The notes under the pieces were generated by a model. That model was not told where the DNA came from. It searched no databases and saw only the letters and a program-made list of their open reading frames with translations. A stretch of 64,000 nucleotides of DNA from Malus domestica (Eukaryota > Streptophyta > Magnoliopsida > Rosales > Rosaceae), in NCBI RefSeq assembly GCF_042453785.1, contig NC_091665.1, positions 29,312,501 through 29,376,500 of the forward strand, given 5' to 3'. A program made the translations under genes and the position numbers. Positions 8,210-44,187 of this stretch are shown piece after piece. Numbering within the stretch: position 1 is the stretch's first letter; every line of letters begins with the position of its first letter.

Positions 8210-9296
8210 AAAAAACAAAAGTGTTAGGATATTTATTTGGGTCATAGGTTCACTTCCAAGGAAAAGCCCGAAAGGCCTGCAAGCCCAAAATAATAACATA
8301 AGGACCGGAACCGGGTGTGTGCAAAAGTAAAGTTTTACGCTGTGGGCAAGTGCAGCAGAGCTCAAGTGTCATAAACCAATCAAGATCATTCAGCTATTCT
8401 GTGTTCGACGACCGTGATTTACTCTCACGGATCCCTCAAGACGACGCCGTGGCTCTCACGGTCTGAACCCGAAGAAAACGGAAAAGAAAAGAAGAATAGA
8501 ACGCGGTAGATGCAGAGACTTTGAGCAAGCGGTCTCATTCAGCTCGCTCTCCATTTTTCAGAGATTCAACGACGTCATCTGACTATCTGCCTCCTCCTCA
8601 GGTACGAAGGAAATGACTTTCCATTCCCAATGGATTCTTCGTTGTTTTTTCTTACTGGGTTTTTTATTTCTGGCTTTCTTACTGAGTTTCTGGTAATGGG
8701 TATTTTGCATGTGTGAGCTTCAAGGGACACAAGGGTTCTTCTTTGTTGTTGGGTTGCTGGGTTTCAATCGGTGTTCTGGTTTGTATATTTAATATTTTGG
8801 ATATTGGGTTTTGCTTTTTAGCTGGGTTACTGGGTATGTTGGTGGGTTTTTTCTTTTGAAACTCAAATCCCCTTTTTTGTATAAACGAAGATAATAAACC
8901 CAGTCGAGAGAAAAGATGTTGCTTGCTTCTGCTGTTTCCGTTTAATTCCAATAGCCCGAATTGAGAGAATAATTTTATTTTTCGCGGTAGCAATCGAAAT
9001 CGAAATACAAGGTTTGATGATCTGACTGGTAGGTGGTGTTTCTCTTGTTCATTATAGACATTAGTTTAGTCGAATGATATTTAAGCTTCGAATGTTGTTT
9101 GTAAATTCAGTTGGTGAATGCTAAACATAATCAGTTTAAGTGGTTTGATGTGTGTGATTTATGACAGTTTAATTGTTAAGTCATTCTCACTATTTATCTG
9201 CTACATGGTAATTAGTCTGCTTGTTTTATGGAAGGATACATCGTCAGAAAGGGCAGGCCGGCAAGTGACCTCTTCGCATCGAGTTGGGAATCAACA

Positions 9297-10669
9297 ATGG
9301 TGAGCTTAAGAAGACACACACACTATAGACTATGTGCTGGTAAATACTTGTTGAAATGTGATTATCCTAGATATGAGTCTATGACTAATTGGTTTTGATG
9401 TTCTTTTGGAGAAGAAACAATCTGATCCACTAGGTTTTTGTTTATTCTTAAGGATTTTTTTTCCACACAGATTGTTGGTCTTTTTGCAGGGAGAACTCCA
9501 CTTCCTAAGTTCTCTGACATCAGAACTGCTTCTCAATATCCCAACCACGAAAAACCAAAAAGTTCGCATCCTACGTGTTCAAATAATGTAATTAAGCGGC
9601 CAGAGGGGGTAAGAATGGATTACCAATCAGTCCATATTATTATATCACTTGCATCAGATGTAACACTGTTTTCTTTGAAGGTTTTATCATGTTTAACAAC
9701 AGTTTAAGATACAATGCAATTTATTAGGAAAGTTTTGATGCGATTTATATTCTGTTGCATAAATTTCTCGTAAAACTCAAGTACATAAGATTCAATGCTT
9801 GATCAGTATGTCTTGATTTCTAAATTGATGTCTAATAACTAATAAGATGTGTGTATGTTCCAACTGTAATACTACCAGAATAAGACTGCTATAGGGGCTT
9901 CGGCTACGAGTTTCACTGATGCAGTGCTGGCTTTGCCTGCTTTTGTAACTGTGGGAAATGAGGCAGGACACTCTCGTATACACAAGCTGCATTTTCAGAA
10001 AAATGGGGATTCTCTTTGGGCTGACGGATCTCAAGGCAGCCAAGTTAGTTCCTTGGAGAACCAAGTAAATGGTCCAGGGTTTGATGTATCTCTAAGCCAA
10101 GTTAAATCCATGGAGAGCCAAGTAAAAGACCCAGGGGATAAAGTTCTAAGCAGCCAAGTTGAATCCTTGCAGAGCCTAGTAAAATACCCGGAAGCTGACG
10201 TATCTCTAAGCAGCCAAAATGAATCCTTGCAGAGCCAAGTAAAAGACCCTGAAGCTGACGTATCTCCAAGCAGCCAGGTTAAATCCTCGGAGAACCAAGT
10301 AAACGACCCAGGGGGGTGATGTATCTCTAAGCAGCCAAGTTAATTCCTCGCTGGGCCAAGTAAAGTTCCCAGAGTCTTGCACCTTTCAGCTTGAGAACAA
10401 GATAGGCAGCTTGCAAGCCACGATGGATAAGCTAAAACAGGAGAAGCTGTGGGAGAAGGTAGAGCTCATGCGGGAAGTAGACTTGCTGATGGTGAACCTA
10501 ACCAAATGCAGTTGAGGGAGCTTTTGCAGAAGGTTGAGAAGTTGCGGAGGATCTCAGCATGGCCGCTCGTGGTGCGGTTGTGGAGGATTCTGCAGCTCCA
10601 ATGGCAGAAGAGTACGGAAAGAGTTAGGACTAAATTCTTTTTCAAAGTCTTGCTCCTTTGAAACGCAAA
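9297..10669 (+). pseudogene. Copy A: 5' half of an AP2/ERF-like gene fused to a coiled-coil repeat exon
   Basis: The gene has the exon layout of copy C (41591-44187). A leader exon ends with a CAG/GTACG donor at 8601. The first coding exon is 9297-9339 (MVSLRRHTHYRLCA), then 9490-9608, then 9879-10319, all joined in frame for 200 residues. Exons one and two align with copy C (MVSLRRRRLLG; pattern PLP..., P.G end). The third starts AAT like copy C exon 4, then diverges into six degenerate 20-residue Ser/Gln/Val repeats. There is no AP2 domain. A run of six G before the stop at 10317 shifts frame: one base fewer would continue the same repeat and a Leu/Lys-rich coiled coil to about 10505, and a further frame change is needed beyond. 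It is likely a decayed chimeric paralogue. An intact short protein is possible. Its function is unknown. Confidence 0.6.
10021..10380 (+). repeat. 60-bp coding tandem repeat in copy A
   Basis: About six degenerate units, each near 20 codons, of the form S-L-S-S-Q-V-x-S-L-x-S-Q-V-K-D-P-x-A-D-V. The last unit lies beyond the G-run frame change, so the repeat array predates the break. The spacing of Val/Leu positions suggests an amphipathic helical repeat. Confidence 0.8.
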
Positions 10670-10679
10670 TGACATGAGA

Positions 10680-11690
10680 TTAATACTACATATCAGTTAG
10701 ATCATGCACGCAAGCACAGATATCAATATACTAAAAAGGGATAGGAATTAGGAAATGATGAACACACTTTTTCTTTTTTACACGTTTTTGTTTAATCATG
10801 TATGTTTTTAGTTATTTGATTTATTTAATCTAATGATTAAAAGTAAAGAAGAATGTGTGAGACCAACAAATGGTGTTCGAAAAATATTATCTTTTCTTTT
10901 CTTTTCTCATTGAACACAAAAAGAGTTGTGCTATTTACACATCTAGTTTTACCTCTTACGCATCGTTCTCAATTTCTGGCTGTCAAATTGAATGGATTGA
11001 AAAAAATCAATAGAAAAAAAATTAACAAGGGTAAAAAGAGGTATGTGAATAGCATTATCTTTTGAAAAACTCATAAACAAATTGAGGACGAAAAATAGCT
11101 GGAGGGCCAAAGTGAAACCACCACTAAAATCCACGGACCAAATTTGTAATAAATTAAACTTCATTATTTATATTGGGTGTAGTCTGTAGTGAGCATTTTT
11201 TCATGGAATAATACTTGGCTACTCAAATGATAAGTAGGAGTTTCTATTCAAAATTGTTCGTTGTCAATTCATAGGACTTCGTATTTATGATCAGAACCGT
11301 TCATGTTATAAACTTTATAAAGATTGCTTCTGCAAAAAATTAATTAAAATTAAGGCCGTTTAGTCATCGAACTGTATAAAAATAGATAAACGAATTGAAG
11401 TTTCTATTCAAAATTGTTCGTTGTCGATTCATAGGACTTCGTATTTATGATCAGAACCGTTCATGTTATAAACTTTATAAAGATTGCTTCTGCAAAAAAT
11501 TAATTAAAATTAAGGCCGTTTAGTCATCGAACTGTATAAAAATAGATAAACGAAATTGGTAAAAGCATTACAAACCGTGTACTTGCTACAATAAAATAAC
11601 TAAACAACTTTAATTTTAATATTTTTTGCAGAGATGAATTTTACAAAAAGATTCGTAATAGTTCCTAAACGATTTTAATCATATTCACAA
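10680..11690. other. Spacer between copies A and B
   Basis: AT-rich non-coding DNA with no recognisable gene. Its only clear structure is the 160-bp tandem duplication listed separately. Confidence 0.5.
11241..11556. repeat. Recent 160-bp tandem duplication
   Basis: Positions 11241-11400 and 11401-11556 are nearly identical: TTTCTATTCAAAATTGTTCG starts each unit and AAAATAGATAAACGAA ends each. Only one internal difference was noticed (a/g after GTTCGTTGTC). Such low divergence points to a recent event or an assembly duplication. Confidence 0.9.
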
Positions 11691-11699
11691 ATTGATTCG

Positions 11700-12120
11700 A
11701 ACCCAAATAGTTCCTACTGATTTATATAGAGCATTAACGCAGAAGGATCCATTCGTCTTCCCGAGGAAGACCCTCTCGACTACTACTGAGCATCAACTCA
11801 GAAGGAATAACCATCCGTCTTCCCGAGCAAGACCCTCTCCTCACATTCCCCCTTCCTTAAATCCCCATCTCCTCCCGCTTTCAGGGATTCCTCCGACTCG
11901 CTCTGACAGTCTCACTCTACCTCCTGAGCTGCAAAAGGTACTAACTTTTTCTTCCCGATCGCTTGTTTCTTCCTTTTTTTTTTTCTTAATGGGTGGTCCA
12001 AGAATCTCATTACTGGTTTGTTTACTGAGTTTTCTGATCATTTGACTTTCTGGGTTATGGCTTTTCAGGAATTCCACCAACTCACTCTGCCCTCTTGAGC
12101 TGCAAAGGTACTGACTTTCT
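11700..12120 (+). other. Leader region of copy B with duplicated exon-end/intron-start
   Basis: A CT-rich leader ends GAGCTGCAAAAG/GTACTAAC near 11937. A second, similar exon end and donor (GAGCTGCAAAG/GTACTGAC) lies near 12108, with similar intron starts following each (TTAATGGGTGG..., TTTGATGGGTC...). About 170 bp were duplicated in tandem, giving two candidate leader donors. The same leader-intron type starts copies A (8602) and C (40466). Confidence 0.6.
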
Positions 12121-12831
12121 CTTTCCATTTGCTTTTTCTTTTCATCTTTTTCTTTGATGGGTCTTTCAATCCTGGATTGTGTACTGGGTTTCTGGCCATG
12201 GGCATTTTGCATTGATGAGATTCAAGTAAAAAAGAGTAATTATTTGATGGCTTTGTGGGTTGTTCTTTATTTTTATGTTATGGCTTTGTCTTTGGAGTTC
12301 AAGTTTACATTTTGGCTTATGGGTTTTGCTGCTTTTTGTATTTTACTAACAGCTCTAACTTTCCAGGTTCAGAAATTATGAATTTTTTTAATTTAGATGC
12401 TTTTTGAAGCCGTGTGACGAAAACATTTACCAGTTACATACAGCTTTACCAATTGAAATCGAGTTTCACTCTCTGATCATGCGACTATTGGGTGATCTTT
12501 CATCTTGCTCATTGTAAATATTAGGTTTCATCCGCCGTGCCTTTAACCGTCAGACTGTTGCTAATGAATTTATTGGTTGCCAGTTCCTTCAAGGCTCCTT
12601 CTCTTTTGTTACTTGAATTATGTTTTGCTCTTTTGGTGGGGTACCTTGTTCATACATATATATCAGGCTTTAGTACATCAGTATCCAAAAACATGTTATA
12701 GTAGTTTCAATTGCTTTATCAATTCCACTTGAAATTCAAATGTACATTACATCACTTTGATTTTTCTTTATCGAAGAAGTAGCTTGATACATGAGAACGG
12801 CCACCAAGAGATCAATGACATAAAATCAACC

Positions 12832-15765
12832 ATGGTGAGCTTAAGAAAGCGCAAACGCATGAGACTGTTCTCCGGTAAGAATTAGCTGAAATGTGATTTT
12901 GTTTGATAGCCTATATTGTTCTGCTGATGATTGTGTTTAGCGTGTTTATTCTTATGAGTTTTGACCTGTGTAATATGATCACATGTCAATGCTTCCTGAT
13001 CAGTTTTGGTGACTGAGAATTGTTCCAATAGGTTATCTTTCTGTATTTATTATTTGGTCTAGGTGAATATTGTTCACCAAATTGCTGGTTGGTGCTTGCA
13101 GGGGAAAGTAATGCTTTAGTTCCACTTCCCAGTTTTTGGGACAAAGAAATTTCTCCTCAAGATCCAAACCGCATGCCTTCAAATGATGTCATTCAGCCAG
13201 AGAGGGTAAGAATTGGTTAATATTTGATATGAAGGTTTTATTTACATGTTAAAAGACACTTGCCAGAAGTAGAGTGATATGTGTTATTTTGCTATAATTC
13301 TAGAAATAGTGTGGGTTATTTTGGTTCAGTTTCGGAAATAGTGTGTGTTATCTTACTGTAGTTCCAAAAATAGTGTGAGTTATTTTACTGTAGTTCCAGA
13401 AATAGTGTCAAAATTTTAAACTGTCATTGTTGCAGATGAAAGAAACCAAGAAACCGAGGATAAAGACTTTTGCTAAGAAAAGCCCAACAAAAAAGAAGAA
13501 GGATTATCTGCAATATAGATGCAACATGATGGGCTTTGCAGATGCCATGCAATTGTACAAGCCTACAATTCAACAACGTCAAGACATCTGCGACGAGTTA
13601 GCCAAGACACCGTTTTGGAGTCTACTAAAAGTGTACATGGATGACATATTGATCGCCACGGATAGAAAGAAGAAGTCCGGTATGGACTTAATAAAGATCA
13701 TGCAATGCTACAACTCAAAGGAGCAAAAATTCAAGTTTGGAGATAATGAAGCAAAGGGAATAACAAACGATGATGTTGTTCAGATATTTGGTCTGAACAA
13801 CAGAGGAGTGGAGCTTCCAAACACAGACAAGTCCACGAAACATGGAAAAGAGGACCCCTTCGTTGACAAATATTTTAAGCATGCAAACGTTGTCAAAAGG
13901 AAGCAACTAATAGAAGCCTATGAAAAATCACTCCTGGACCAATCTCCTCAAGGTGCAAAAGATACTACTTCCATAATCTGTGCTCATCTCATCCAATCAC
14001 TTCTTTTTGCTAATTCTGGAACGTATATTACCTGGAGTTTCTTAAAGATATGTGGGGAGTTGGATGAGATCAGTAAATATAACTGGGCGAAAGGAGTGAA
14101 AGATTACCTCCTCAAGATGATAAACAAAGCACAGAAGAAGAAAAAAGATAGAGGAGAAGAACCAACAATTAGCGGCTGCACCGTCTTTGTTTTGGTAAGA
14201 AATAAGAATAATAGTACGAAGAGCATGAATTGTTTTTTTATAAATTTCACAAAACTAACTTCAGTTTCCTGGTTCGTACAGTATTGGATATGTCTTCATA
14301 CAAATGTGGTTAAGACGGTCAAAGGACGAGAAAACATGATTCCGGCAATTGCAAGATGGGATACAAGTATGATACACAAAGCAATCAAAGATGTCCCAGT
14401 TGAACAAATCAAAATGACCAATAATCAAGTTATTTCACTCTACATTTCAGTAAATAATGACTATTTGCAGTTTACAATTTCACAAATATTTCATGTTTAC
14501 GCTTCTAGAAATAGTGCATTTCTATAGCTGTTTTCAATTTGCAATTCTATAAAAATAATGGTCTCTTTATTTAGAAACATAATTAACAACAAAATATTGT
14601 CAGTAAACACTTAAACAAAATAATAACGGTTTACAATTTCAGAAATAATGTCTTACTGCAAATTCGTAAATAATTCCAATTTGCAGTTCTAGAAGTAGTT
14701 TATGTTTATCAATCTTTGACTTTGTTTATCAACCAAAAATAATTACATTACTATGTAAGTTAACAAGTATATAATGTGATTGTGTGCAGATTGATGGTGT
14801 CATTCCTTGTGCTCAACCACAAGAAGAATCTTCGAAGAAAAAACAAGAAAAAACAAGAACAAAGAAAAGAAAGCAAAGTGATGTCATTCCTTATGCTCAA
14901 CCTGAAGATGATAAATTGGATGATCATTCCCACCAAAAAGAGGAAGCAAACAAAGATGAGATGGCAGAGGTTGATAAAAATTTGAAGAAGAAAAAGAACA
15001 AACAGAAAAGGAAGCAAAATGATGAAGAACATGAAAGCATCAATATAAATGAAGCTCAAGCACAGTTCGATCAACTGTGCAAAGAGGAAATGAGCAAACT
15101 CGATGCCATTCATCAGAGATACATCGTTGGCATGGATAGAACTTTAAGTGTAGATCTTTTCAATGAGTTCAAGAGTGCTAGGAGCATTGATCAGAAAAGG
15201 TACCTAACCTTCAAGACGATGATGGCATACGCACTTGACTCTTCCAACAAAGAGTGCGTAGCACTCAGGGAATCAAATAAAATGCTAAACCATGAAATGA
15301 AAAAGATTCTACGACAAGAGGAGCTTGACAAGAAGAAAGTGAATGCACTAAATGCTGATTTATTATCATTGCAGACAAAGAACAGTGCAGCTTCTCTAAA
15401 AAATCAATGAACAGCTAAATGAGATTGGAGCTTTAAAGAAGAAGTTGGAAGAAAAGGAAGCAAAAATGCCAGGTTTGAATGCTTCTGTACACGAACTTCA
15501 GGAAGAGTGCAATCAAACCGCTAGTAATTCCAAAGTTCAATCTCCATTGGGTGATGAAATTATCAAAAAGGCCAACTTTCCAATTCCTCATAGCTTATCA
15601 GACGAAATCGCGGTGCTTGAGGCGTCTGAGGGAGCCGAATCAAGCGCCGACTCTAAGGAAATACCTAAAGCGATTTCTCCGGTCAACTCTAAAGCTGCTT
15701 CCGAGGATATGTCTGCCGAGGGCAAGGTTAAGGTTGTTGATATTACAAACGCCTCCGAAACTTAG
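12832..15765 (+). CDS. Copy B: chimeric gene, AP2/ERF-like 5' half fused to a transposon/Ulp1-associated-like domain and a coiled coil
   Basis: Exons 12832-12874 (MVSLRKRKRMRLFS), 13102-13205, 13436-14194, 14282-14449 and 14790-15410 join with GT-AG introns in one frame; the last three junctions are phase 0. The first two exons match copies A and C. Exon three (253 codons) has the pattern Q..I...L...PFWSLL, IKIMQCYN, FKFG, ITNDDVVQIFGLNNRG. With exon four (YWICLHTNVV, GRENMIPAIARWD) it resembles plant proteins of the DUF1985/plant-mobile/Ulp1-associated kind. That assignment is from memory and uncertain. Exon five is Lys/Glu-rich, then helical. The frame stops at 15408, but shifting by one in the A-run at 15398-15403 opens about 118 more coiled-coil codons to the TAG at 15763. 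This is either a frameshift mutation or a base-count error. There is no AP2 domain. Its role is unknown. Confidence 0.6.
13270..13412 (+). repeat. Degenerate 30-bp repeat in copy B intron
   Basis: Four copies of a unit containing TAGTTCCAGAAATAGTGTG and TTATTTTACTG lie directly before the splice acceptor at 13435. Related words (TTCTAGAAATAGTG, TTTCAGAAATAATGT, TTCTAGAAGTAGT) recur in the later intron at 14505-14700, so the same short motif flanks the exon that carries the foreign domain. Confidence 0.6.
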
Positions 15766-15796
15766 ACATGGTTTTTACTTTTCAGTGTTTTTAGAC

Positions 15797-16282
15797 GATG
15801 TCTGCCAAAAGACGCTAGGAATTAGTCGGACGGCGGATTGAGGCCTAGCTCCTAAGCGAACTAGGAGGATTTAAGTAGATCTTTTATATTTCGTGTAAAT
15901 AAGTGTCTATTTATACTTAAAATATATATAATTTCATTATAAACTACAACATAGAATGACATGTATATTATGAAGTATTGGAATATAAGGAAAAACATGG
16001 GAAACAAGTATATAATGTGTATTCATTTAAGTATTCAATAAGTTTCTTACAATTTATTAAAAAAATAAAATACAAAATGAAAGTTATCTATTTACTATCT
16101 AAGTGAGTTGCAACCTAGGTGGATGCCTAAGCAGGTCTGAGCGGGTGCCTAGGTGGTCTAGGAGGGCGTCTCAGCAGGTCTAGGCGTCATTTTCTTAATT
16201 TTCAAACGCCAAGATATTAATCGGGGCGGTGGCCAACCGTCTAGCGTCTAGGCCGAACCAAGCGGGGATTTTTAGAACAGTG
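15797..16282. mobile_element. hAT-like MITE, copy 1, in the 3' flank of copy B
   Basis: The left end carries AAAAGACGCTAGG...TAGTCGG.CGGCGG and the right end ...CGGGGCGGTGGCCAAC...TTTTTAGAACAGTG, inverted versions of one another in their GC-rich parts. The interior is AT-rich (TTTCGTGTAAATAAGTGTCT). The same family occupies 24491-31680. It sits about 30 bp after the copy B stop, so it probably replaced or interrupted the original 3' UTR. A clean 8-bp duplication was not found. Confidence 0.65.
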
Positions 16283-16599
16283 TCCAAAATTGAACAACTT
16301 GCTATATGCCTCAGTCATGAAACTTTGGCTGTTTTGAACTTATGCTATATGCTATTGGCTTTGTAAAGAGAAACGAAAAGCAATTCCCATGAATTCAGAA
16401 AGAAGTTTCAGATGCAGGTAACTGAACGTGACTATACTTGACTTACCTTTTACACTCAATTTATTGTTAATTAAACTATTAATATCTCTTTAAACTTAAA
16501 TTTACTATCTTAACTACCCTGACAAACCCTGTTCAATACGTTAATTTATTTGTACACCCATTTAAAATAAAAAACCCAAACAGAGCATTTTATTTGTAA

Positions 16600-17799
16600 T
16601 TAATGATAAGGTAAATTACATAGTAGCCTCTCATGTTTGAGATCTATTAGACTATTACAATATCATACAACATCTTTAAAACATTTCACTTTCATACCTC
16701 ACGTACTATTTTATTTCAAAATAATACATCCGTTACATTTTTCATCCATTGATCCATTAAGTGATGACGTGGCTGCCACATTGGCAAAAAAATAATTTTT
16801 TATTTTTTTATTTAAAAAAAAAAACCTAAATCTTCAACAAAAAAACTTAGAAAACCCAGATCCCATCACCCCACCCCACTTCTGCCCCCACCCCCGGCCG
16901 CCGAAACCCCATCCATTTCATCATCTTCCCCATCGGTCGTCCCTCCCTACAACCCAAATCCAAAACCACTCCCACCCATCCTCCTCCGCACCCATCTTCC
17001 ACCTCCTCCGCTCACCCATCTTCCCATCTCCCCCCCCCCCCACCCACCCGAGCCCAACCTGCAACCCAAAAAAAAAAAAAACTCATCTTCATCTTCCCAG
17101 ACCCCCCTTCCCTGCAACCCACCCCTTTCTTCCCCCTCCCATCTTCCCCAAACACACTATGCACCCATCCTCCACCTCCTCCTCCGCACCCACTACCTGC
17201 AACCTAGAAAAGAAAAAAAAAAACCATCTCCCTTTCCCTACAACCCAGATCCCGTCTTCCCCAATGGGTGTGGATTTAAGGAGTGGGGTGTATAGAGAAG
17301 GGAAGATGGGTGGGTGCGGAGGGTAGGTGCAAGGGTAGGTGCGGAGGAGGACGTGGAGGATGGGTGCGGTGGGTTTGGGGAAGACGGGAGGGGGAAGAAA
17401 GGGGTGGATTGCAAGGAAGGGGGGTCGGGGAAGATGAAGATGGGTTTTTTTTTTTTCTTCTTCTTCTGGGTTGCAGGTTGGGTGGGGGAGGGGAGGAGGG
17501 AAGATGAAGTGGGGGTTGTGGGGAGGTGTGTTTCAGCTTTTGTTTTTGGTTTTTTTTTATATATTTATTTAGAAGATTCAGGTTTTTTTTTTAATTAAAA
17601 ATTATTTTTTTTGCCACGTAGCACAAATGTGGCAGCCACGTCAACGCTTAACGAATCAATTGATGGAAAATGTAACGGAGGTGTTATTTTGAAATAAAAT
17701 AGTACGTGAGGATGAAAGTGAAATGTTTTAAAGATGTTGTATGGGGTTGTAATAAACTTCAAACCTAAGGGGCTTCTATGTAATTTACCCTTAATGATA
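16600..17799. mobile_element. 1.2 kb foldback Mutator-type element with 9-bp target duplication
   Basis: The element is 16609-17790, flanked by ttaatgata at 16600-16608 and 17791-17799. The ends AGGTAAATTACATAG and CTATGTAATTTACCC begin inverted repeats over 200 bp (shared: ACAACATCTTTAAAACATTT, CACGTACTATTTTATTTC). The left interior is C-rich (CCACCTCCTCC...) and the right interior G-rich, so nearly the whole element could fold into one hairpin. Open frames in the G-rich part are low-complexity artefacts. No transposase is present. Confidence 0.85.
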
Positions 17800-17934
17800 C
17801 TACTTCATATTAATGGAATGCATAATATTTGTTGCAGGTAATCATGTATATGATTGCATATCGCCTCATAGAAATATGTAAATCAGATTAATTATTGTGA
17901 TGAGTTGTTAATTATCCTTAATTTAAAAAGGAAA

Positions 17935-18705
17935 AATTAGTATCATGTCCCTAGTTCTTACTGTTCATTGACTAAGACCTTATTAGTTCTTAAATTTTGA
18001 TTTAAGTCCCTATCATTAATGTGATAATGAATTTAAATGTTTATTATATAATTTTTAATATAAAAATTAGTAATTAATTTAGGGTTTAATACTCACACCT
18101 CTATTAAACTTCTAATTAATTTTCAATTCAAACATTTCCAAAATAAAAAAAAATTAAATTAAATTAAGTTTGTACCTATTAGTTTTTTTATATATAAAAA
18201 GATTCTCAATTTTTTAATCTTAAATGTACCCATTCATATAAATTTTCAATTTTTTTAATCTTAAATGTACCCATTCTCAAATATATCAATTTGTTATATG
18301 TAAAATGTACCATTTTTTAATATAAAATCCATTCAAATTTTTTAATCCATGTTTAAACTTATATGGGTACATTCTTTTTCGTTAATTTGAGAATGTATTC
18401 ATGTTTTGGTACAATAACTTTTTTTGTTAATTTTGGTTAATGTACCCATACATATATGTATATACACACACACACAATATAATAGAGAGTATAATTTATA
18501 TTTTATTATTTTTAATCCCATAAATTATGGGTTTTATTTAAAATCTCATTAATATAAACAATTACAAATTTCAATTTTTAATTTTTAATTTAAAAATATA
18601 GTAACTTACATTATTACATTAATGTTAAGGATCTCAACAAAAAACTAAAAACTAACAAGGTTTCAATCAAAGAATATTGATAGTTAGGGACCGCATCCAA
18701 AGTGT
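17935..18705. mobile_element. AT-rich MITE family with GTACCCATT repeats, copy 1
   Basis: Diverged terminal inverted repeats of about 85 bp: left TCCCTAGTTCTTACTG...ATTAATGTGATAA, right ATTACATTAATGTTAAGGA...TAGTTAGGGACCGCATCC. The interior carries repeated AATGTACCCATTC words. A second copy in the same orientation is at 21445-22452. Boundaries are approximate. Confidence 0.6.
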
Positions 18706-19363
18706 CCCATTTAAAAAACCTATTGAAACACATAGCAGATGCCGAATAGTATGCAGATGTTAGCTGGAGAGCTGGAGATGATAAACATATAGAAGTGAAG
18801 GAAAGAACACTACACAACATAAAAATAATCGAGAAGTGAATAGGGAAGAGTAGAAATCACCGAATAACACACAAGAAGCTTTGATCTGCGGTGAGAAAAC
18901 TTATTGTTCATTTGTAATGGATGCTGTTATTTTTGGTGTAAGAGAAAGAATCATAAACATAAGTATAAAAACCATATTGCTCATCAATTTTTTAATAAGA
19001 TGATTTGTAATTTTGTACTGGTGCTATCATTTTTTTTAGGGTTTGATTATTTGGGGTAGGTTTATTGATAAATCTTATTTTTATTGTTAATTTTGTCTTC
19101 TACTAAATGGTGATTTTGCAATAGCGTAATAAAGACATTTCATATCTAGAGTTTAAATTAGATGTAGAAAAATGTTATATGAGTTCAAACAAAATTTTCC
19201 TGGTCATTTTTAATCATCAAGAATTTATGTGGTCAAATAAATTAACAGATTTTGTTTTATTTTCTACTTTTATGGCCATGGAGGGCAAAGCCCAATGTTT
19301 ATGCCTAAGAAAGTAAACTAGCAATGTCAACTCATTCAATTGAGGGAGAAATCAAAGTTATTA
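18706..19363. other. Non-coding spacer
   Basis: No gene, repeat boundary or RNA was recognised. Confidence 0.5.
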
Positions 19364-19585
19364 AGGGCATCTCCAGTGAAAACACTTAAATTTGAGAGGT
19401 AAAAGCAACATTTACACCTCACTTTATATTTTCGAAAGATGTATATTTCAATTATACTCTAATGAGAAAGATGCAAATTTAAGATTTCATTTATTTTTCT
19501 CTTTAACTGGCAAGATCTCCAAAGTATGTAAATTTGCATTTTTATTTACTTTTTGGACAACAAAAAATAGATTGGAGATGCTGTA
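19364..19585. mobile_element. Small MITE candidate
   Basis: About 220 bp bounded by GGGCATCTCCAGTG and, inverted, GATTGGAGATGCTG. Short terminal inverted repeats with the word GCATCTCCA are common in plant MITEs. No convincing target duplication was found. Confidence 0.4.
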
Positions 19586-19777
19586 AATAAAGAATATACT
19601 TCCAATCCTAAAAACATAAACGGAATCCCAAACCGATCTCTTTCGTGATGAGATTTCGAAAACCAAAACCAAATAGAAAAATTCAATAATTCCAAAGAAA
19701 GAACTCAGTTTTTCGGTACAGTTTGGGACTATGCCTTCAGTTCCTCACTCTATCTCTCGATCGAATTCAGCTAACAA

Positions 19778-20703
19778 TTACCACCCACCCAATTTATTTT
19801 TTTTTTTGGACAAGAATGAAGCTTCATTAATGAAAGAGAAATACAATTTGTATTAAGAAAGGCCTAAACCTAAACAAAACACAAAGTCCTACACAACAAA
19901 GCAAACATAAAAAAGAAACCAAGCCCAAAAAAAAAAGAGCTACAACCTCAGCCACAAAGGGAGACCCACACAAATTTAGGCCCGTAGACTACAAAAGAAG
20001 CAGTGAACAATAAAACCCTAATCTCCAAGCGCCAAAACTCAGCCACAACCGCTACTACCTCCGCGAAGGAAGATATCACACCAAACTAAAAAATGCACCC
20101 TAACCAAAAACTAGATCTGACAGTATTAAGCACAGTCAATCCACCAAGAGCTTAAGCCTCCATAGCCACACTTGCAAGAAAAGTCACCAAAAGTAATAGG
20201 AGGAGGGGGAGGGCGAAGGGGGTGTGTAAAACACCCTTGTTCCGACTTGAATCATTTCACACTTCTCCCAATTTTTCCGGTAAGCTGGATTGACAGTAAG
20301 TTATGAAGGTTGGGCCTTGAGTCAAGATAAAACCCAACACTCTGAGATCTAATTCCTGGTTAAGAGTTGGAAAGGATGAAGGGCAGGAAGAGGGAGGTAG
20401 GAGAAAAGGGTGTGATGGGGAGGGAGGAGATAGATGGTGGTGAGCAGCAGTTGGTTGAAGAGCGGGTACAAAACTGAGATAAGAGCTCAGATAGATGAGA
20501 CAAAGCTCATAAAAAAACATGGAAACAGAGAAGAAAAGGAAGAGAAGAAGGAAAAGCAGAATAAAGGAAGAGAGAAATGAGGACTGCCACTGACCCAAAA
20601 ACCAAAGGCTAGGGCCGGCGGCTTAGAAGGGGATTCTTTTGGAGCTTTTTCAAAGAATGGGTTTTTCCCGCGACCAAACTTCCCGTTTTACCACCCATCC
20701 ATT
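19778..20703 (-). mobile_element. Retroposon with poly(A) and 16-bp target duplication, LINE-like
   Basis: The flanks ttaccacccacccaat (19778-19793) and ttaccacccatccatt (20688-20703) differ at two positions and enclose a minus-strand insert that ends in a poly(A) tract (T run at 19798-19808). Just upstream of the tail is CATTAATGAAGCTTCATTC, a word typical of plant L1 3' ends as I know them. There is no reverse transcriptase frame in about 890 bp, so it is either an internally deleted L1 copy or another processed RNA. The 113-codon frame at 20257-20598 (-) has no recognised domain. Confidence 0.6.
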
Positions 20704-20721
20704 GCTTGCTAAATTTTGAAA

Positions 20722-22452: not shown

Positions 22453-22489
22453 TTGTGTCATGAATTCATTGCACTATACCCAAATGGCT

Positions 22490-34682: not shown

Positions 34683-35345
34683 AATGTACCTAAATGTATG
34701 TACCGAAATGTATTATATTGAACTAATGTATTTAAATGTTAGTACCGAAATGTATGTACTAAAATATATACACCGAAATGTATTATATTAAATTAATATA
34801 TCATAAATGTGTGTACCGAAATGTATGCACCGAAATGTATTATATTAAATTAATATACCATAAATGTGTGTACCGAAATGTATGCACCGAAATGTATTAT
34901 ATTGAATTAATGTACATAAATGTCTGTATCGAAATGTGTCACATCTCGGCCCGAGATTGTAAGATCTCACATCGCCCAAGGGAGTGGATCATGTAAGCTT
35001 TATATGTATATTCTCATCTCTATCTAACACGATGCCTTTTGGGAGCTCATTGGCTTCAGGTTCTGTAGGAACTCCAAAGTTAAGCGAGTTCGTGCGAGAG
35101 CATTCCCAGGATGGGTGATCCACTGAGAAGTTTTCGTGTGAATTCCCAGAAACAAAACCATGAGGGCGTGGTCAGGGCCCAAAGCGGACAATATCGTGCT
35201 ACGGTGGGGAGTCGAGCCCGGGATGTGGTGAGGGCTCAGGTCGGGATGTGACAAAATGTATGTACCGAAATGTGTGTACCTAAATGTATGCACCGAAATG
35301 TATTATAATGAATTTAATGTACCTAAATGAATAAAAGACAAAATA
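34683..35345. repeat. Minisatellite of GTACCGAAATGTAT units, split by a Cassandra LTR
   Basis: Words ATGTACCGAAATGTATG and CACCGAAATGTATTATATT repeat with a larger period of about 60 bp over 34683-34936. They resume at 35254-35345 after the inserted LTR, so the array existed before the insertion. Confidence 0.8.
34937..35253 (+). mobile_element. Cassandra-type TRIM solo LTR with 5S rRNA-like core
   Basis: Flanked by aaatg at 34932-34936 and 35254-35258. The core GGAACTCCAAAGTTAAGCGA...GCGAGAGCATTCCCAGGATG...GGTGATCCACTGAGAAG resembles the internal promoter part of plant 5S rRNA, the hallmark of Cassandra. It ends GGGATGTGACA. The first 21 bp (TGTCACATCTCGGCCCGAGA) are an inverted copy of its own 3' end, preceding the usual TGTAAGATCTCACATCG start. 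It is a solo LTR with no internal domain. Confidence 0.85.
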
Positions 35346-35698
35346 CATCGAAATATATTGTATAACAAGAATTAGTATATCTAAATGTTTACAACAAAAT
35401 ATATTACAATAAATGAAATGAAAATTATAATTATAATGAAATAAAATTAATACATTAAAATTAGGAAGAAAAAGATAACTAATTAAAAAAATGCAAATGT
35501 AATTAATAAATGAGGTTATTAATGTATCAATGGACTAAAATTATATTTTGATCTTACTCATGGTTTTAGTCTAAAAGTCATATTTGCCAAGGATTAGAAT
35601 GAAGTTTTCTATTTCATTTAACTTCATTGACAAGCTTTATTGACAAGTACTTATTTATTAAGGTTCTCTAACTTCAAGTGCATTAGTATGAAAAAAAA

Positions 35699-35893
35699 GG
35701 GATAATGCTAGGAAGACCAATTTTTTTAAACTAAATGATGTGTCACCAATAAGAAACAAGCATGTTAATTTAACACTTAATTAATAATCCAGTCATTCTA
35801 CAACCACATCATTTGGTTTGCAAATATGGTTTAAAAATTTTGGTTACCCTAACATTATCCAAATTTTTACTTAGGTACTCATTTTCTAATTCA
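35699..35893. mobile_element. Small MITE and its right flank, copy 1 of a duplicated segment
   Basis: The inverted ends GGATAATGCTAGGAAGACCAA and AAAATTTTGGTTACCCTAAC...ATTATCC mark a MITE of about 165 bp. The MITE plus about 25 bp of non-MITE flank (ACTTAGGTACTCATTTTCTAATT) recurs at 37654-37843, so the repeat is a segmental duplication, not two insertions. Confidence 0.75.
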
Positions 35894-37653
35894 ACTCCGC
35901 CATAGCACAATGTTGTCCGCTTTGGGCCCTGACCACGCCTTCATGGTTTTGTTTTTGGGAACTCACACGAGAACTTCCCAGTGGGTCACCTATCATGGGA
36001 TTGCTTTCGCACGAACTCACTTAACTTCGGAGTTCCGATGGAATTCAAAGTAGTGAGTTCCCAAAATGCCTCGTGCTAGGTAAAGATGAGAATATACATA
36101 TAAGACTTACAAGATTCATTCCCCTAGGCGATGTGGGATGTTACAATCCACCCCCTTAGGGGCCCGACGTCCTCGTCGGCACACTTCCGGCCAGGGATTG
36201 GCTATGATACCAAATTGTCATATCCCGGCCCGGGCCCCTACCACATCCCCGGCTTGACTCTGCCGTAACACGATATTGTCCGCTTTGAGCCCGGACCACG
36301 CCCTCACGGTTTTGTTTCTGAGAACTCACACGAGAGCTTCTTAGTGCGTCACCCATCATGGGATTGCTCTCGCACGAACTCGCTTAACTTCGGAGTTCCG
36401 ATGGAATCCAAAGCCAGTGAGTTCTCAAAAGGGCTCGTGCTAGGTAGAGATGAGAATATACATATAAGGCTTACAAGATCCACTCCCCTAGGCGATGTGG
36501 GATGTTACAATCCACACCCCTTAGGGGCTCGACGTCCTCGTCGGCACACTTCCGACCAGGGATTGGCTCTGATACCAAATTGTCACATCTCGGCCCGGGC
36601 TCGACTCCGTCGTAGCACAATATTGCCTGTTTTGGGTCCTGACCACTCCCTCACGGTTTTGTTTCTGAGAACTCACACAAGAACTTCCTAGTGGGTCACC
36701 CATCATAGGATTGCTCTTGCACAAACTCGCTTAACTTCGGAGTTCTGATGGAATCCAAAGCCAGTGAGTTCCCAAAAGGCCTTGTGCTAGGTAGATATGG
36801 GAATATACATATAAGGCTTACATGATCCACTCTCCTGGGCGATGTGGAATGTTATAATCCACACCCCTTAGGGGCCCGACGTCCTCGTCGGCACACTTCA
36901 GACCAGAGATTGGCTCTGATACCAAATTTTCACATCCCCGCCTAGGCTCGACTTTGTCGTAGCACTATATTGTCTATTTTGGGTCCTGACCACGCCTTCA
37001 CAGTTTTGTTTCTGGGAACTCACACAAGAACTTCCCAGTGGGTCACCCATCATGGGATTGCTCTCGCACGAACTCGCTTAACTTCGAAGTTCCAATGGAA
37101 TCCAAAGCTAGTGAGTTCCCAAAAGGCCTCGTGCTAGGTAGAGATGAGAATATACATTTAAGACTTACAAGATTCATTCCCATTGACGATGTGAGATGTT
37201 ACAATCCACCCCCCTTAGGGACCCGACGTCCTTGTCGGCACACTTTCGACCAGAGATTGGCTCTGATACCAAATTGTCACATCCTGGCCTGGAGCCCCAC
37301 CACATCCCGGGCTCGACTCCCCACCGTGGCACGATATTGTTTGCTTTGGGCCCCGACCACACCCTCATGGTTTTGTTTCTAGGAACTCACACGAGAACTT
37401 CTTAGTGGGTCACTCATCCTGGGAATGCTCTCGCGCGAACTCGCTTAACTTCGGAGTTCCTACAGAACCCGAAGCCAATGAGCTCCTAAAAAGCCTCGTG
37501 TTAGGTAGAGATGAGAATATATATATATATATATAAGGCTTATAAGATCCACTCCCTTAGGCGATGTGGGATGTTACAATGTGCTAGGTAGAGATCAGAA
37601 TATACATATAAGGCTTACATGATCCACTCCTCTGGGCGATGTGAGATGTTACA
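35894..37653 (-). mobile_element. Head-to-tail array of Cassandra-type TRIM elements
   Basis: On the minus strand, LTRs lie at about 37578-37275, 37203-36928, 36856-36581, 36509-36216 and 36145-35894 (the last truncated), preceded by a partial LTR at 37653-37580. Each full LTR carries the 5S-like core (reverse complement of CTCGCTTAACTTCGGAGTTC). Four internal domains of about 70 bp separate them, each with TTTGGTATCAGAGCC, a Met-initiator-tRNA-type primer site, and a purine tract next to the following LTR. There is no coding capacity. The array shape suggests unequal recombination between LTRs rather than five insertions. The LTRs differ from one another at many sites, so it is not very recent. 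Confidence 0.85.
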
Positions 37654-37843: not shown

Positions 37844-38156
37844 CTCAATTAAAAAAAATGTCACATGTTTTTTGGTTTTAGAGCATAAGAAAAATTAATT
37901 AAGATGTCTATTATTTTTTTAAAGCAGTAAAACATGTGTTAAAATATCATTGGATCAAAATTAAGATGAGAGAGTAGCTACTAGTAAATACTTAAGTATT
38001 ATCTTAAAAAAAATAATTACTTGAAGTACTTAAAACAACAATAAAGTTAGATTATCGAGATCAAAAGTGTAACCTAGCCAAACATGTTTGTCAACGCTTG
38101 CACAATGATCTCATAATGCCACCCTTAGAGACTTAGGGCGATGGTGCTTATAATCT

Positions 38157-38311
38157 AGGGAACTTTAATGAAAAGTACTCGGTACTGTTCACTTTAACGA
38201 AAAATCATATTTTTACACAAAAAAATCAATCCTGGTACTATTCACTTTACCCTTTATTTTGTCCTTATCATTAAAACTCAAAGTTTTCAAGCCATTTTCA
38301 TTAGTTTTCCT
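38157..38311 (+). mobile_element. High-copy MITE, GGGAACTTTAATG type, copy 1
   Basis: GGGAACTTTAATGAAAAG at the left and TTTTCATTAGTTTTCC at the right form imperfect inverted ends. The middle has TACTATTCACTTTACCC and TTTGTCCTTATC. A reverse-oriented copy is at 53147-53294. Confidence 0.65.
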
Positions 38312-40300
38312 TATAATCTATCATTTGTCACGTTTTTTTAATTTTTACAAGTTATCTCATAATTACTTTGAGATACTGTCATCTTAACGTTTTTGTTTTG
38401 TGTAAATCATTCTCTTAAAAACAGCGATTGTCATCGCTATGTATCAAGTTCAAAGGGAGGAATGCATGTGAAACAAATTGTAAGTTTGATTAGACGCATT
38501 GAGTACTGATTAGGGCAATGATTAGGCAGAAAATAAAGTTTATGGTTCTAGAAAAAAAGGTTGATTTGTAAAAGTTTGGAATTAGGGGTGTGGGTTGGCG
38601 GGACGTTATCTACATTCTTATTTGGCAGGCCGTCCAGTCGTCCACCCAATCACCGTTTCGTCGGTGCCCTTCTCTCGCTACCAACCAACGCAACACTAAT
38701 AATAATTTCCTAACCCCCTCTTTGTCCACCCTTCGCTATCTCTTTAATTACCCTTTTACCCCTTTGCCCCTCGCCCTGTTTCGTTATCTATCCCACCTGC
38801 ACGGCACTCGGAATTTCTGTTCGGATGACGGGATTACCCTTTTTATTGTTCTTTTTTTTTTCAACGTTCATGTGTGAGAAATAAAAATACATGCATAGGT
38901 TCGGACTTGAAATGTAATTTAACATAGTTTTAATGAGGTTGGCATTTGGGGATAATGATTTTCTCGGTTAATTCATGCGTCTTGCTATACTCCGAATAAG
39001 GCAAAGAATATGTACCAACCATATGCAAGATCCTCATTCCAATTAATTAGGCGTCTGTTCTTGATTTTGTGTGGAGCCCATTTTTGTTCTAATTCCTTAA
39101 CGTGTCAATAAGTAATAAGATCACATGAAAATAGGAGTGACTTCTTTCATTCATATTCTTGTAAGAATATGAGTATGAAAGTAATTGTTATAGCTGATTG
39201 ATTCAAATTGGTGCAGAAAAGTCTTATGAAAGTAATATTATTTTGTCCTAATTACATGGAAGTAGACTTAGTATGTCAACTGGTTTTTACTGCTTATAAT
39301 TTGATAAGGAAACTATTTTGGCGTTCAATATGGATTCTAATAAGGGAATCATGTGGATTAATCGTCTTTATTAATAGTGGTCACTGCTAGTATAGAAAAG
39401 ATAACGCTTATTATTGGACTTGGACCTATTGTAAAGTTGAGCATATTGTTTATGCAAAAGAGGAGAGCTTACTATTAAAGTCGGCTATGACTTCATTTTT
39501 CCGATTTTCAAAATGTCAGATTTATTTGTTACAATTCCATGTTACTAAACAAGAGTTGCTCAAAAACTAGATGAAGGATTGGCTTTGGTACGTCCACTGG
39601 TATTGGAGACTGTGGTGTCGGGAATTCACCAGATGTATTATCGCTTGAAATGGATAACTTGATCGTTAGTCATCTCTCTAGCATCCCTAATTGTTTAGAC
39701 AAAGAAAGAAAAAAAAAAACCCCAAAATCAAAAGGACAAAGAAGGAAGGATGTTTCTTGCAGTCAAAGTTTAAAAGGAAGGCTTTACCCTTCCTAATAAG
39801 GGTTTTACCTTAATTAACCAACACATATCATATGACTCTCACTTTGTTATCCACCACATAGGGCTTCAGCAACTTTTAGAACAAATATTTACCCAAAAGA
39901 AGAAATTTTTTAGAAGAAAACCCTTTTCTGCTTTCACCCACAAGCAAGCATGATTGGATTTGGAGACATCATCAACTCATGACCCCAGACAAAAAATTAT
40001 TAAGGGGCATATTGGTCAACTCATCGCATCTCAAATATAATGTCAACCAACCAAGGTACCAATCACAAATGTTCAAAGGGTAAAACTGGAATTATAACCC
40101 TAAACCAAAGTACACACATAAGTATTGCTCTCTCTCTAAGGAGACTAGTCACTCCCCCTTCATCAGCCCTACCACAGTACCACCACCAGTCTCACCACCA
40201 CCCCTCTCTTCTTAAAAACCAAAAAACCAAAAAACCAAAAAAACAAAACCAAACAAACAAAACAAAAGGTGGTAGATGCATGAGACACAAATACAATTAC
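38312..40300. other. Intergenic region upstream of copy C
   Basis: No gene was recognised. The frames of 60-117 codons lack domains. The part 39200-39660 is less AT-rich than its surroundings and may be an eroded coding remnant, but no family can be named. Confidence 0.45.
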
Positions 40301-40465
40301 ACACACTCTCTCTCTCTCTTCCTTCGCTCACCACCCTCCCTTCCTTTAAAATCCCAATCCTTTTTCTTTTCCTTTTCCAGGGAATTTAATTAAATTTACA
40401 ACTGCCTCTAATTCTCCGCTGCCTCTCTCCCAGCTCCAAGAACCGCCACCTTTCTGCCTCCTCAG
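40301..40465 (+). promoter_or_regulatory. Leader exon of copy C, (CT)n-rich
   Basis: A pyrimidine-rich leader (CT repeat at 40303-40319) ends CTGCCTCCTCAG/GTAAAA at 40465. Copy A has the same exon end (CTGCCTCCTCCTCAG/GTACG). A (GT)n microsatellite lies in the following leader intron at 40640-40668. Confidence 0.6.
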
Positions 40466-40640
40466 GTAAAAAGGAGCTGCCTTTCTCTTTCCCAATGGCT
40501 ACTTTCGTCTTTTTGTCTAATGGGTTGCGTTTTCATGGCGTGTTGACTGTGTTTGTGGCCGTGGACTTTTTGGGTTGACGAGGTTGGAGCCAAAGGAGGG
40601 CTTTTTTTTCGTTTGGGGTTTTTGTGTTGCTCTTGATTTG

Positions 40641-40671
<31 letters not shown>

Positions 40672-41590
40672 GTGTTTGTTTTTGAATTTTGGTTTTTGGG
40701 TTTTGTTTTTCTGGTGATGAAACTTCCATGAAAGGTGGTAGGTTGGTGGGTTGACTTAGCTTTCAAAGGTCAGACATTTGGAATTTTTATCAATTTTTTT
40801 TGTGGTTTTCTTGGATTTTTTTCGATTTTAATCCATCCTGCATGATAGATGGTTCGGTTTTCTGTTTGCAAGATAAATATGACTGAGTTTGTTGTTGTCA
40901 CCTTGCGCCAATTACTGCAATTCTGAAAAAAAAAAAAAAAAAAGAAAAAGATGCCTGAATGAGAGATGTTGAAGTCAAGTGATTGGATGAATTTTGCTTG
41001 TCTCTGTTGATTTCGATGTGTTCTAATTCGACTTGAGACTGTTTTCGGTTGTACAAGCACAATTGTTTGTCTTCTCACTTTATTCAAGGCACATAAGGTG
41101 TTTAAGTAAATCTCAGGGGAAGTTCATATGTATCTTTTATGATTGGAGTTTTGAGTTCCTTATGGCTTTGTTGGAATAATCTTTTGTTGTAGCAATAGAA
41201 ATCGAAAATATAATCTTAGATCATGTGACCACTTGGTGGTGTTTTATCCTTGATCACTTGTAAATAGTATTGTAGTAGTTTCTTCAGAAGTGCCTTGACC
41301 TTCATTCACATTGCATATGAATTTCGATGACGTAGTTAAGAAATGTATGTGCTGAAGTTTTTCATCCTTTAATGTGGTTCTCTATAGTTAGTGGCATTGT
41401 GTTTTGATTTACTTGTTCTCACGTTATTATGTTTTTTGTTGACATTTTAATTGTTAAGTCGTACCCCGTTTGAAATTGTAACCTTACTTTTCATTGTAAT
41501 ATGTCTACTTGATTTGTCCAAGGAATGGGTGATGCATGAAAAAGGCTGCCAAGTGAGTGTTGTGCTTCGATAATCAAGTTGAAATCAACC

Positions 41591-44187
41591 ATGGTGAGCT
41601 TAAGAAGGCGCAGACTGTTGGGATTGGGACTATGCTGTGGTAATAATCAGTGGAAATGTGCTATACAACATATGATTGATTGTTTTTATTGAATAGCATG
41701 TATTGTTCTTCTACTCTTAGCAATTCACATGCTAATCCTCTTTGAGTTTTAAGTTGTGTCGTAACCTTTCAGCGCTTTGTGATACATTTTCAGTTTGATG
41801 ACTTTTTTTATGCTTAAACGAATTATTCACCAATTTTTGTCTTTGCAGAGATACCTCCGGTTCTAGATCCACTTCCTAGGGTTTTCAACAATGGAACCAC
41901 TCCTCAAAATTTCACCCGTGCGAATCCTGTCAGTGTGCATCCCATGCCTGCAAATGATGCATATCAACCAGATGGGGTAAGAGTAGATTGTCGATCAGTC
42001 TATATCATTAAATTACGTACATTAGATGGGCAACTGTTTTCTTTGAAGGTTTTATTAGCTTGTTTAGGACACTCGTCAGGCAGGATTTTTATGTTTTCTG
42101 TTAACCTATATGTATGTATGGTAAGAGAAAATTTCCATATATGCTTTAGAACAAAAATCCGTAGGCTGCATGTCTCGATAGCGTAGCGTAAGCTGAGCAG
42201 GGTACCCATAGCAAAATGGTAAGATGGAAATGATCACCATATAAGACCTAAAAAACCGTTTTCATTATAACAATATTTCTTTTAGGGAATTGTTATTGGC
42301 ACTACAAAATTCTCATTGTGCGCTCCAAACTTTCTATATTTCAAAAGAAAACTACAGTTCCCTTCTTTTAATGCAAGAAAAGGATTTTCACAAGCAATAA
42401 ACCATTTGAGATGTTGGTGCCCCTAGGCCTGGTTTTGTCACCAAGTATGCTCTTAATTACTAGTTACTTGATCAAGAAGGCTAAAAAGCAGCATTTTCTT
42501 CTATAATATTTATTTTAATGAATTGGTTCAGCCAAAAAACGAAAAATATATGCCATAAGTAGAAACTCGAAAGCTCTATCTGGGAGATTTCACTAGAGTT
42601 CTGGATTCCTTTCAATAATTTCTTGGCTTCTTGGCTTCATTCTATCTGATGCTTTATTTATTACCAGAATACCATTGTGAAAGCAGAATTTCGGTCCTCA
42701 ACTGCATCGGGTTGTAGCTTATCCAAAGAGCAGCACGATGTGGCAGGTTTGTTGTGTATATTAAATTTGCTATCATTTCTAATTATATATTACGGATTAG
42801 AATGCTGGATATCATGGACTTTGGACGCACAAATTTGCGAACTCATCCTTTTGAAACTTGTATTTTCTGTCTTTACATTATGAGCTACTTTGTGGTTGTC
42901 TTTGCGATTTCATTTCTCAGAGAAGATGCGAGTTTTTGATTTTGCAGTTATTTTCAACTTTTGGTATATATGCCAATAGAAATATCTTGGCACACAGCAT
43001 ATTCTTGAATCTCGATAATGGAAGTTTTAAAGAACGTATACGTTTATCCATTACAATTAGCTTGAGAGGGTATGCCAGTGTTACAGGTTGATCGTTTCTA
43101 AAACATAATATGCTATTTGCAGGGCCACCAATCAAACGCAGAAAGCGACATCGCAGAAAGCATGCTCAGAACCAGGAACCATGTCTGATGAGAGGTGTCT
43201 ATTTCAAGAATATGAAGTGGCAGGCAGCAATAAAAGTTGATAAGAAACAAATCCACTTGGGCACTGTTGGTTCACAAGAAGAGGCTGCTCATTTGTACGA
43301 CAGGTACTATTGCGTTTTTGTCACTACGAACACTACTTATTGGATGAGCACTATGAGTAAAGATCAGCATATACTAGATCTTTAGTTGTGCATAATTTTG
43401 AAAACCATAAACCATTGCAGTTTTCTTTTGTCTACCGAGTACCGAGTGCCTTCTCTTATTAGTGGTTCTTTATCATGTTATTAACAATACCTTCAAATAA
43501 AACAATCTTAGTCTTCATTGTTGCTTCACTGGTTTTTTTCATCCGCATTCTTCAGACAGGGTCATCAGATAAGACATGCCACCCTAAATGTTCATTCCAG
43601 CCAGTGGTTACCCGTGTCCTTTTTTATGTTATTTCTGGTTTTTTATTTTTATTTATTTTTTTGAAAATCTAAAGGCCTGTTGTGTCTGCATTACCAACAT
43701 GATATAGTGGTTAGTGCCAATCCCCCGACGTTCAAAAACATGAAACTTGATAAACCAAAAAGGAAAATGGGTGGTAGCCTTTGTGTGTCAAATGCAATAA
43801 ATTATGGCACATATAAACTTTGTTAGTTTTGTTATTTGTGTTCAGGGCCGCTTTCATGTGTGGGAGGGAACCAAATTTCGAGCTTTCTGAGGAGGAGAAG
43901 AAAGAACTCAGGAAATTCAAGTGGGATGAATTCTTGGCCATGACTCGTCATGCAATTACCAACAAAAGTATGTTTTCCTCTTCTCATTCCCCAGACTTTA
44001 CGTGTCTCCATTCTGTAATTGTTTGCTTTCGTGAAATATTTCAGAGCACCGGAGAAGGTCAGGGGCAGAGTCAGAGAAGAGGTCCGAGAGTCCTCAATTG
44101 GAAGACGCAAACTGGGAGGATGACAAAGAAGAAGTGAATGTCCTCTCAGCTTCAGAAGATGCAGAGCAAGACATGTTAGACTCTTGA
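41591..44187 (+). CDS. APD1: Copy C: AP2/ERF-like transcription factor of the At4g13040 type
   Basis: Exons 41591-41639, 41849-41976, 42668-42746, 43123-43303, 43846-43967 and 44045-44187 give 233 residues, with all GT-AG introns and frames checked. The N terminus MVSLRRRRLLGLGLCC and the block EPCLMRGVYFKNMKWQAAIK are as I know them from Arabidopsis At4g13040, a divergent AP2-domain nuclear protein described as APD1 and linked to salicylic-acid defence. A basic stretch KRRKRHRRK (about 90-98) is a likely nuclear signal. The single AP2 domain spans about 107-165, including IHLGTVGSQEEAAHLYDRAA, and is split by a phase-2 intron. The C terminus is acidic. A leader intron of about 1.05 kb precedes the start exon. 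The start lies in ACCATGG context. Copies A and B share only the leader intron and first two coding exons. Confidence 0.9.

Follow-up and report, generated by a model that had tools for sequence, protein, structure and literature searches.

We analysed a stretch of 64,000 nucleotides from Malus domestica (C5:29312501-29376500, hereafter the window) and searched the genome of 651 Mb (19 contigs) for relatives of what it holds. Three copies of one gene 5' half, which we call A, B and C, lie in the window (Table 1), and a decayed relative, relic D, lies on C10. Past intron 3 the three copies part: C continues into AP2 exons, A into a 60-bp repeat array, and B into an open exon of 253 codons with more open exons behind it. 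Here we are concerned mainly with B, in which the 5' half of a Soloist-type AP2 gene stands in front of a gene from a dispersed, mobile-element-like family.

Table 1. Features of copies A, B and C in the window, and of relic D on C10
Feature	Position	Strand	Remarks
Leader intron of A	8602..9234	+	8593-8693 aligns with C 40457-40558 at 74%; boundaries by eye
A start exon, coding part	9297..9339	+	phase 1; blastn, splicing, genome-wide pattern
A exon 3	9490..9608	+	phase 0; blastn, splicing
A intron 3	9609..9878	+	similar to C until about 9695; marginally to D up to 9767
A exon 4	9879..10319	+	146 open codons, 20-residue repeat; stop 10317-10319
Leader intron of B	12108..12779	+	12086-12222 aligns with C 40453-40585 at 70%; boundaries by eye
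B start exon, coding part	12832..12874	+	phase 1; blastn, splicing, genome-wide pattern
B exon 3	13102..13205	+	phase 0; blastn, splicing
B intron 3	13206..13435	+	join of Soloist-like and mobile-element parts at about 13268-13282
Tandem array in B intron 3	13283..13408	+	32-bp unit, 3.9 copies; four same-strand AAATAGTG motifs
B exon 4	13436..14194	+	253 codons; DUF1985/PMD-like; dispersed family member
B exon 5	14282..14449	+	phase 0; family similarity to about 14437 in many copies
B exon 6, charged	14790..15410	+	stop 15408-15410 after an A-run; acceptor by eye; open reading frame 14775-15410
Leader (5' untranslated region) intron of C	40466..41522	+	GT...AG by eye; donor side resembles A and B
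Gene C, Soloist-type AP2, intact	41591..44187	+	spliced translation of 233 amino acids
Gene C coding exons	41591-41639, 41849-41976, 42668-42746, 43123-43303, 43846-43967, 44045-44187	+	
Relic D, B lineage	L053:1305-1712 (C10:27.0317 Mb)		fifth, more diverged copy

Judged by its sequence, gene C is a resident, ancestral-type Soloist AP2 gene (At4g13040-type). Its spliced product holds MRG and HLG within the AP2 domain (LMRGVYFKN...QIHLGTV), the signature that PMC5543283 uses for assigning genes to Soloist. A single AP2 domain with both motifs likewise characterizes this subfamily of AP2/ERF in Arabidopsis (At4g13040/APD1) and Isatis (Ii049), whereas A and B retain the first two coding exons only and have no AP2 domain. 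The Pfam AP2 match of the C product is weak, with E 1.4e-4 and 22.5 bits against a gathering score of 33.3 bits. All six coding exons of C were found, exon by exon, at C10:27182653-27185184, and colinear blocks (window ~38.5 to 59.6 kb, plus another at 22.6-24.5 kb) show C5 and C10 to be duplicates of each other in this region. Therefore, C is a native gene and not a chimera. Between C and its C10 homoeolog, the nonsynonymous rate (dN) is 0.033 and the synonymous rate (dS) 0.175 over exons 2-6; exon 7, which aligned from its third base only, was excluded.

The first-pass annotation of this DNA had claimed a common leader intron, start exon and exon 3 for A, B and C, and our blastn searches, splice phases and alignments confirm it. 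The start codons lie at 9297 (A), 12832 (B) and 41591 (C), the coding parts of the start exons measure 43, 43 and 49 nt and end in phase 1 in all copies, and exon 3 ends in phase 0 in all three. Blastn pieces connect every pair of copies where the leader exon passes into the leader intron, in the start exon and in exon 3, the top A/C piece (9497-9687 against 41868-42055) being 70% identical at E 1e-19. Over the 5' region, the best local alignments reach 74.8% identity for A/C (766 columns), 73.8% for B/C (688) and 73.3% for A/B (922), compared with 89.8% for C/C10. Similarity beyond the start exon, whose absence would by the annotation's own account have refuted it, is present in the leader intron, in exon 3 and in the beginning of intron 3. 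The leader region of B also carries an additional donor-like copy at 11938.

The 3' half of B is of different origin. Counting itself, its exon 4 has 39 genome matches. Identity to the others is 67-88%; the highest value belongs to a single 134-bp piece, and family copies reach at most ~74% to B over long stretches. Our family analyses cover 29 of the 38 other loci. In Pfam, exon 4 matches DUF1985 (E 2.8e-5) and PMD (7.9e-5), both below the gathering score, and 7 of 10 family open reading frames match DUF1985, likewise below it, at E 6e-5 to 7e-4. Taken together, the DUF1985 and PMD matches of B and of these 7 lie at E ~1e-3 to 1e-5. Four family copies have one common sharp upstream start and differing flanks, as expected of a mobile element. 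We found no element 3' end, inverted terminal partner or target-site duplication, and a candidate element end in copy L040 was rejected as internal, L059 having an identical flank. No transposase was identified in 12 stretches for which open reading frames of at least 150 amino acids were listed, most of them without a domain scan. A single-sequence fold of B exon 4 had a mean predicted local distance difference test (pLDDT) score of 36.5 and was not used.

Exon 6 of B is 35.7% identical to L040 (E 1e-34), the match running on in another frame to ~15507. Downstream exons of L040 match Peptidase_C48 (E 0.0014 over two joined exon pieces, below cut-off), and through this weak match L040 resembles the Kaonashi/KIU ULP-like genes of Mutator-like elements (MULEs; PMC13317346). 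Unlike them, B has no C48 part: the C48-like exons of L040 have no match in the window at E 0.01, and B lacks a ULP1 (C48) protease domain. By its weak PMD profile match, B also recalls the PMD proteins MAIN and MAIL1, which likewise place a mobile-element-derived domain in a gene-like setting (PMC7156037, PMC5418596). B differs from them in being joined to a Soloist 5' half, and the likeness is one of profile.

Where the two parts of B meet could be narrowed from both sides. On the Soloist-like side, similarity to D and C reaches ~13267-13273 (the D alignment ends at 13267), and after 13280 neither comparison rises above shuffled sequence (B/C and B/D scores reached by 180 and 169 of 300 shuffles, respectively). 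On the mobile-element side, similarity begins at 13278-13310 in the furthest-reaching family copies and at ~13400 in many. Together, these limits place the join at ~13268-13282, that is, within ~15 bp and 62-77 nt past the intron 3 donor. Furthermore, the family exon starts with, or shortly before, its own start codon: AG/ATG (the slash marking the splice boundary) stands at the exon start or at most 45 nt from it in 23 of the 26 copies whose exon start is covered (3 of the 29 are not; L017, L021 and L029 are without it). As the element exon brings its own start codon at the acceptor, the join puts 49 in-frame codons upstream of it. The frame of B is compatible over the join, GT/AG ends are present at every join of the gene, and the predicted protein has 564 amino acids (49+253+56+206). 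No AP2 exon remnants were found near A or B by tblastn, and C 42084-44700 had no blastn match in window 9700-22600 at E 0.1. B is a real chimera of a Soloist 5' half and a mobile-element-family gene.

We consider it probable that the Soloist 5' half of B, joined in intron 3 to the mobile-element gene, gives rise to a predicted fusion protein. The fusion would be spliced and expressed with the Soloist leader driving a DUF1985-like protein, and, by comparison with VANC and PMD proteins, its function may lie in chromatin or transposon silencing. Several observations weigh against this reading. The intron 3 matches before the junction are modest when taken alone (B/C 50 against a maximum of 53 in 200 shuffles; B/D, in the same part, 39 against 43), so that the Soloist-side limit depends on alignments anchored in exon 3. 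The DUF1985/PMD matches all lie below Pfam gathering scores, in B and in the family, and 3 of the 10 family open reading frames have no such match at E 0.01. The frame is broken in exon 6 of B (~15400), as it is in exon 4 of A. Finally, the low dN/dS of B exon 4 against 10 family loci (0.05-0.14 by the Nei-Gojobori method, NG86) counts for the reading, but dS is saturated (1.8-3.7). Of the 29 loci, one more was tried and yielded no dS, and the remaining 18, whose best open stretch scored at most 500, were skipped. These ratios largely mirror the mobile element's own history, and the constraint need not postdate the join.

The strongest rival treats A and B as wreckage and nothing more: Soloist copies that were truncated and lie beside an element remnant in B and beside repeats in A, with no fused transcript or protein. 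We regard this as a serious possibility, if clearly less probable than the fusion gene. The frame breaks in both copies speak for it, and so do the clearly broken state of D and the repeat-rich neighbourhood. Each stop (10317-10319 in A, 15408-15410 in B) comes right after a homopolymer run, and related sequence goes on in another frame. On the other hand, the compatible frame over the join, the GT/AG ends and the 253, 56 and 206 open codons of B speak against it. These codons are open despite the parting of B from C well before the C/C10 duplication, an argument weakened in that the join itself may be of a later date.

The age of the copies follows from their Jukes-Cantor (JC) distances, which are lower bounds because local alignment retains the best-matching parts. 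These distances are 0.08-0.11 for C/C10 and 0.27-0.39 for A or B against C, C10 or each other, so that A and B stand ~3 times as far from C as C10 does. Consequently, A and B split from C before the C5/C10 duplication. Relic D carries an indel in its start exon, and a 33-bp piece of its intron 2 end is repeated within exon 3. A five-copy tree, built from five short and gappy rows, groups B with D and C with C10 in 100 of 100 bootstraps each, and one 90-bp piece of B and D is 91% identical. We rejected the view that D is simply the counterpart of B across the C5/C10 pair, given that the core identity is 74.7% for B-D and 92.3% for C-C10; D is therefore assigned to the B lineage without a firm date. 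Beyond the position of the B junction, D still resembles C-type intron 3 (score 60 against C, reached by 0 of 300 shuffles; a weak 41 against C10, reached by 9 of 300). D is a probable unfused relative, and there is a hint in these scores that the fusion in B came later than its split from D. The 7 kb upstream of D hold no copy of A.

Copy A looks like a related 5'-half copy whose single-copy downstream part has decayed. Its intron 3 clearly matches that of C (score 100 against a maximum of 45 in 200 shuffles), but the similarity fades after ~9695: past 9700, 122 of 300 shuffles reach the A/C score of 29, and 1 of 300 reaches the A/D score of 46. The tandem array of A (10020-10364) comprises 5.8 copies of a 60-bp unit at spacings of 57, 57, 60, 60 and 61, and since these are mostly whole codons, the 3' half of A may once have been coding. 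The stop of A follows a G-run, with repeat-like sequence continuing in another frame. This 3' half has no other match in the genome, either as DNA or as a 70-amino-acid second-frame peptide. We also rejected drift from a Soloist exon 4 as the origin of A exon 4, because the exon bodies do not align (score reached by 275 of 300 shuffles); only the acceptor context TA(C/T)TACCAG/AATA matches, with a score of 22 (63 of 300).

With these results, the proposal that one 5' half had been joined to three different 3' halves at a common phase-0 intron can be kept in part. A and B do share a 5' half and differ downstream; C, with its six coding exons on C10, is the ancestral type and drops out as a chimera. 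The phase-0 intron holds the switch point in B, mapped there to ~15 bp; in A, no switch point was located.

We found no backing for the further idea of a dispersed family built on a reusable cassette. A pattern for the start-exon context, allowing at most 3 mismatches, hit 4 places in the genome, namely A, B, C and C10 (reversed-pattern control, 0). As all 4 lie in two homoeologous regions, the copies are local, not dispersed. In the sequence preceding the leader exon, A and B score 40 and 36 against C, below the maxima of 100 shuffles (48 and 43), while C10 scores 509, which goes against a promoter cassette; promoter similarity of A and B to C may nevertheless have been lost through age. A nuclear-signal cassette also appears weakly founded, in that the N terminus of A retains only RR of the basic cluster and C has a basic run in exon 5, PPIKRRKRHRRKH, that is longer than its N-terminal basic cluster.

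The same observations bear on the possibility that a mobile element captured the Soloist 5' half and spread it as a portable leader cassette. Although the capture of gene pieces by transposons is reported (PMC13317346), this is very improbable here and largely refuted in this genome: besides the 4 places and the promoter regions that do not align, neither the 29 family loci (~1.5-kb flanks) nor 11 longer stretches (8-9 kb) lying upstream of family copies yielded a convincing module match. Least probable of all is an assembly artefact at the B join. A repeat array does sit at the junction, and base errors might account for the frame breaks that follow homopolymer runs in A and B. Yet each side of the join is diverged from every match found for it (family copies as given above; D at 91% over 90 bp only), which leaves nothing near-identical that could have supplied a mis-join.

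Returning to the fusion gene, the following course of events may be proposed. Before the C5/C10 duplication, copies of the C locus or of its 5' half would have formed upstream of C, with A and B descending from them and D persisting on C10 as a relic of the B lineage. In the B lineage, a break in intron 3 would then have been connected to a point within the mobile-element gene's leader intron. With the element acceptor kept, Soloist exon 3 (phase 0) could splice in frame onto the element start codon, and the product, with a Soloist-type leader in front of its gene, would consist of a 49-residue basic Soloist N terminus, a DUF1985/PMD-like domain and a charged tail. On the simplest path, the element might have inserted into intron 3 of a Soloist copy or downstream of it, and a deletion would then have fused that intron with the leader intron; end joining of unlinked breaks would look the same. 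With no AP2 remnant and no element start left near B, the two paths are not distinguishable. A single related match to the element start lies at window 38158.

The window holds other repeats. Between A and B, a 160-bp tandem duplication (99% identical) occupies 11239-11554, with related repeats on C10. A repeat stretch at 15852-16282, beginning ~90 bp past the last open frame of B, matches the same repeat places on C10 as 24493-24902 and 38148-38315. An element-like structure at 16697-17711 has inverted arms (16697-16782/17626-17711) and inner arms (17070-17157/17369-17456). An open reading frame for a reverse transcriptase of the long interspersed nuclear element (LINE) type occurs at 24881-26524 and 30889-31362 (RVT_1, E 1.9e-36), its part 25938-26237 recurring at 30989-31288 with 94% identity. 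Finally, 34955-37653 contains a direct-repeat cluster with ~347-bp spacing, plus long inverted repeats.

Intron 3 of B retains four motifs of an AAATAGT array. Arrays of this kind were scored as at least 3 motifs on the coding strand and at least 3 times the number on the other strand within 1 kb upstream. Of the 26 family copies that could be scored (3 of the 29 could not), 25 have such an array ahead of the exon and L021 does not; among 61 tiles of 1 kb taken from the window with 13-16 kb left out, 0 do. The stretch upstream of the family exon is taken as an intron from the AG before the exon. Long 17- and 53-bp tandem arrays precede the exon in L042, and the upstream stretches of L042, L039, L044 and L048 hold AAATAGT arrays of up to 60 copies in 2.6 kb, with 0 on the opposite strand. 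Because AAATAGT was picked by eye once the arrays had been seen, and then counted, and because tandem repetition by itself makes the strands unequal, the counts show arrays, not binding. The motif is mainly AATAGTT in one subgroup and AATAGTG in another, which includes B, and some copies have both.

These features recall the anti-silencing VANC genes of VANDAL (Mutator-like) transposons, elements with a VANA transposase whose VANC product binds the motif and removes DNA methylation. For VANC genes, PMC5735166 describes DUF1985, a same-orientation motif in intronic tandem repeats, and motif variants between subgroups. The apple family resembles VANC in the one-orientation tandem arrays of a short motif in its presumed intron (PMC5735166, PMC10398659), in a motif that differs between subgroups (PMC5735166) and, at a weak score, in its DUF1985-like domain. 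However, the family motif is unlike YAGTATTAY, the DUF1985 match is below the gathering score, and B has an extra Soloist N terminus. The parallel is close in anatomy, yet unproven, and we do not file the family as VANC. By extension, B might be a host-controlled, VANC-like anti-silencing factor, an element gene with a product that reads AAATAGT arrays, brought under the leader of a defence gene (Soloist) by an intron-intron join. We hold this to be unlikely, if worth stating: since four target motifs remain in the intron of B itself, such a factor could act in trans on family chromatin and on itself. If true, this would be a VANC-type system with self-targeted intron arrays outside Brassicaceae. 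Among the VANC papers listed by a literature search, no title names a Rosaceae case, the fusion itself not having been searched by name.

Joins between host genes and mobile-element genes are a known source of new genes. B would be a case with a junction placed to ~15 bp and two identified parents, and the same genome still holds a probable unfused relative (D). Likewise, a family that combines a DUF1985-like exon with oriented arrays makes VANC-type self-recognition testable in a second plant lineage.

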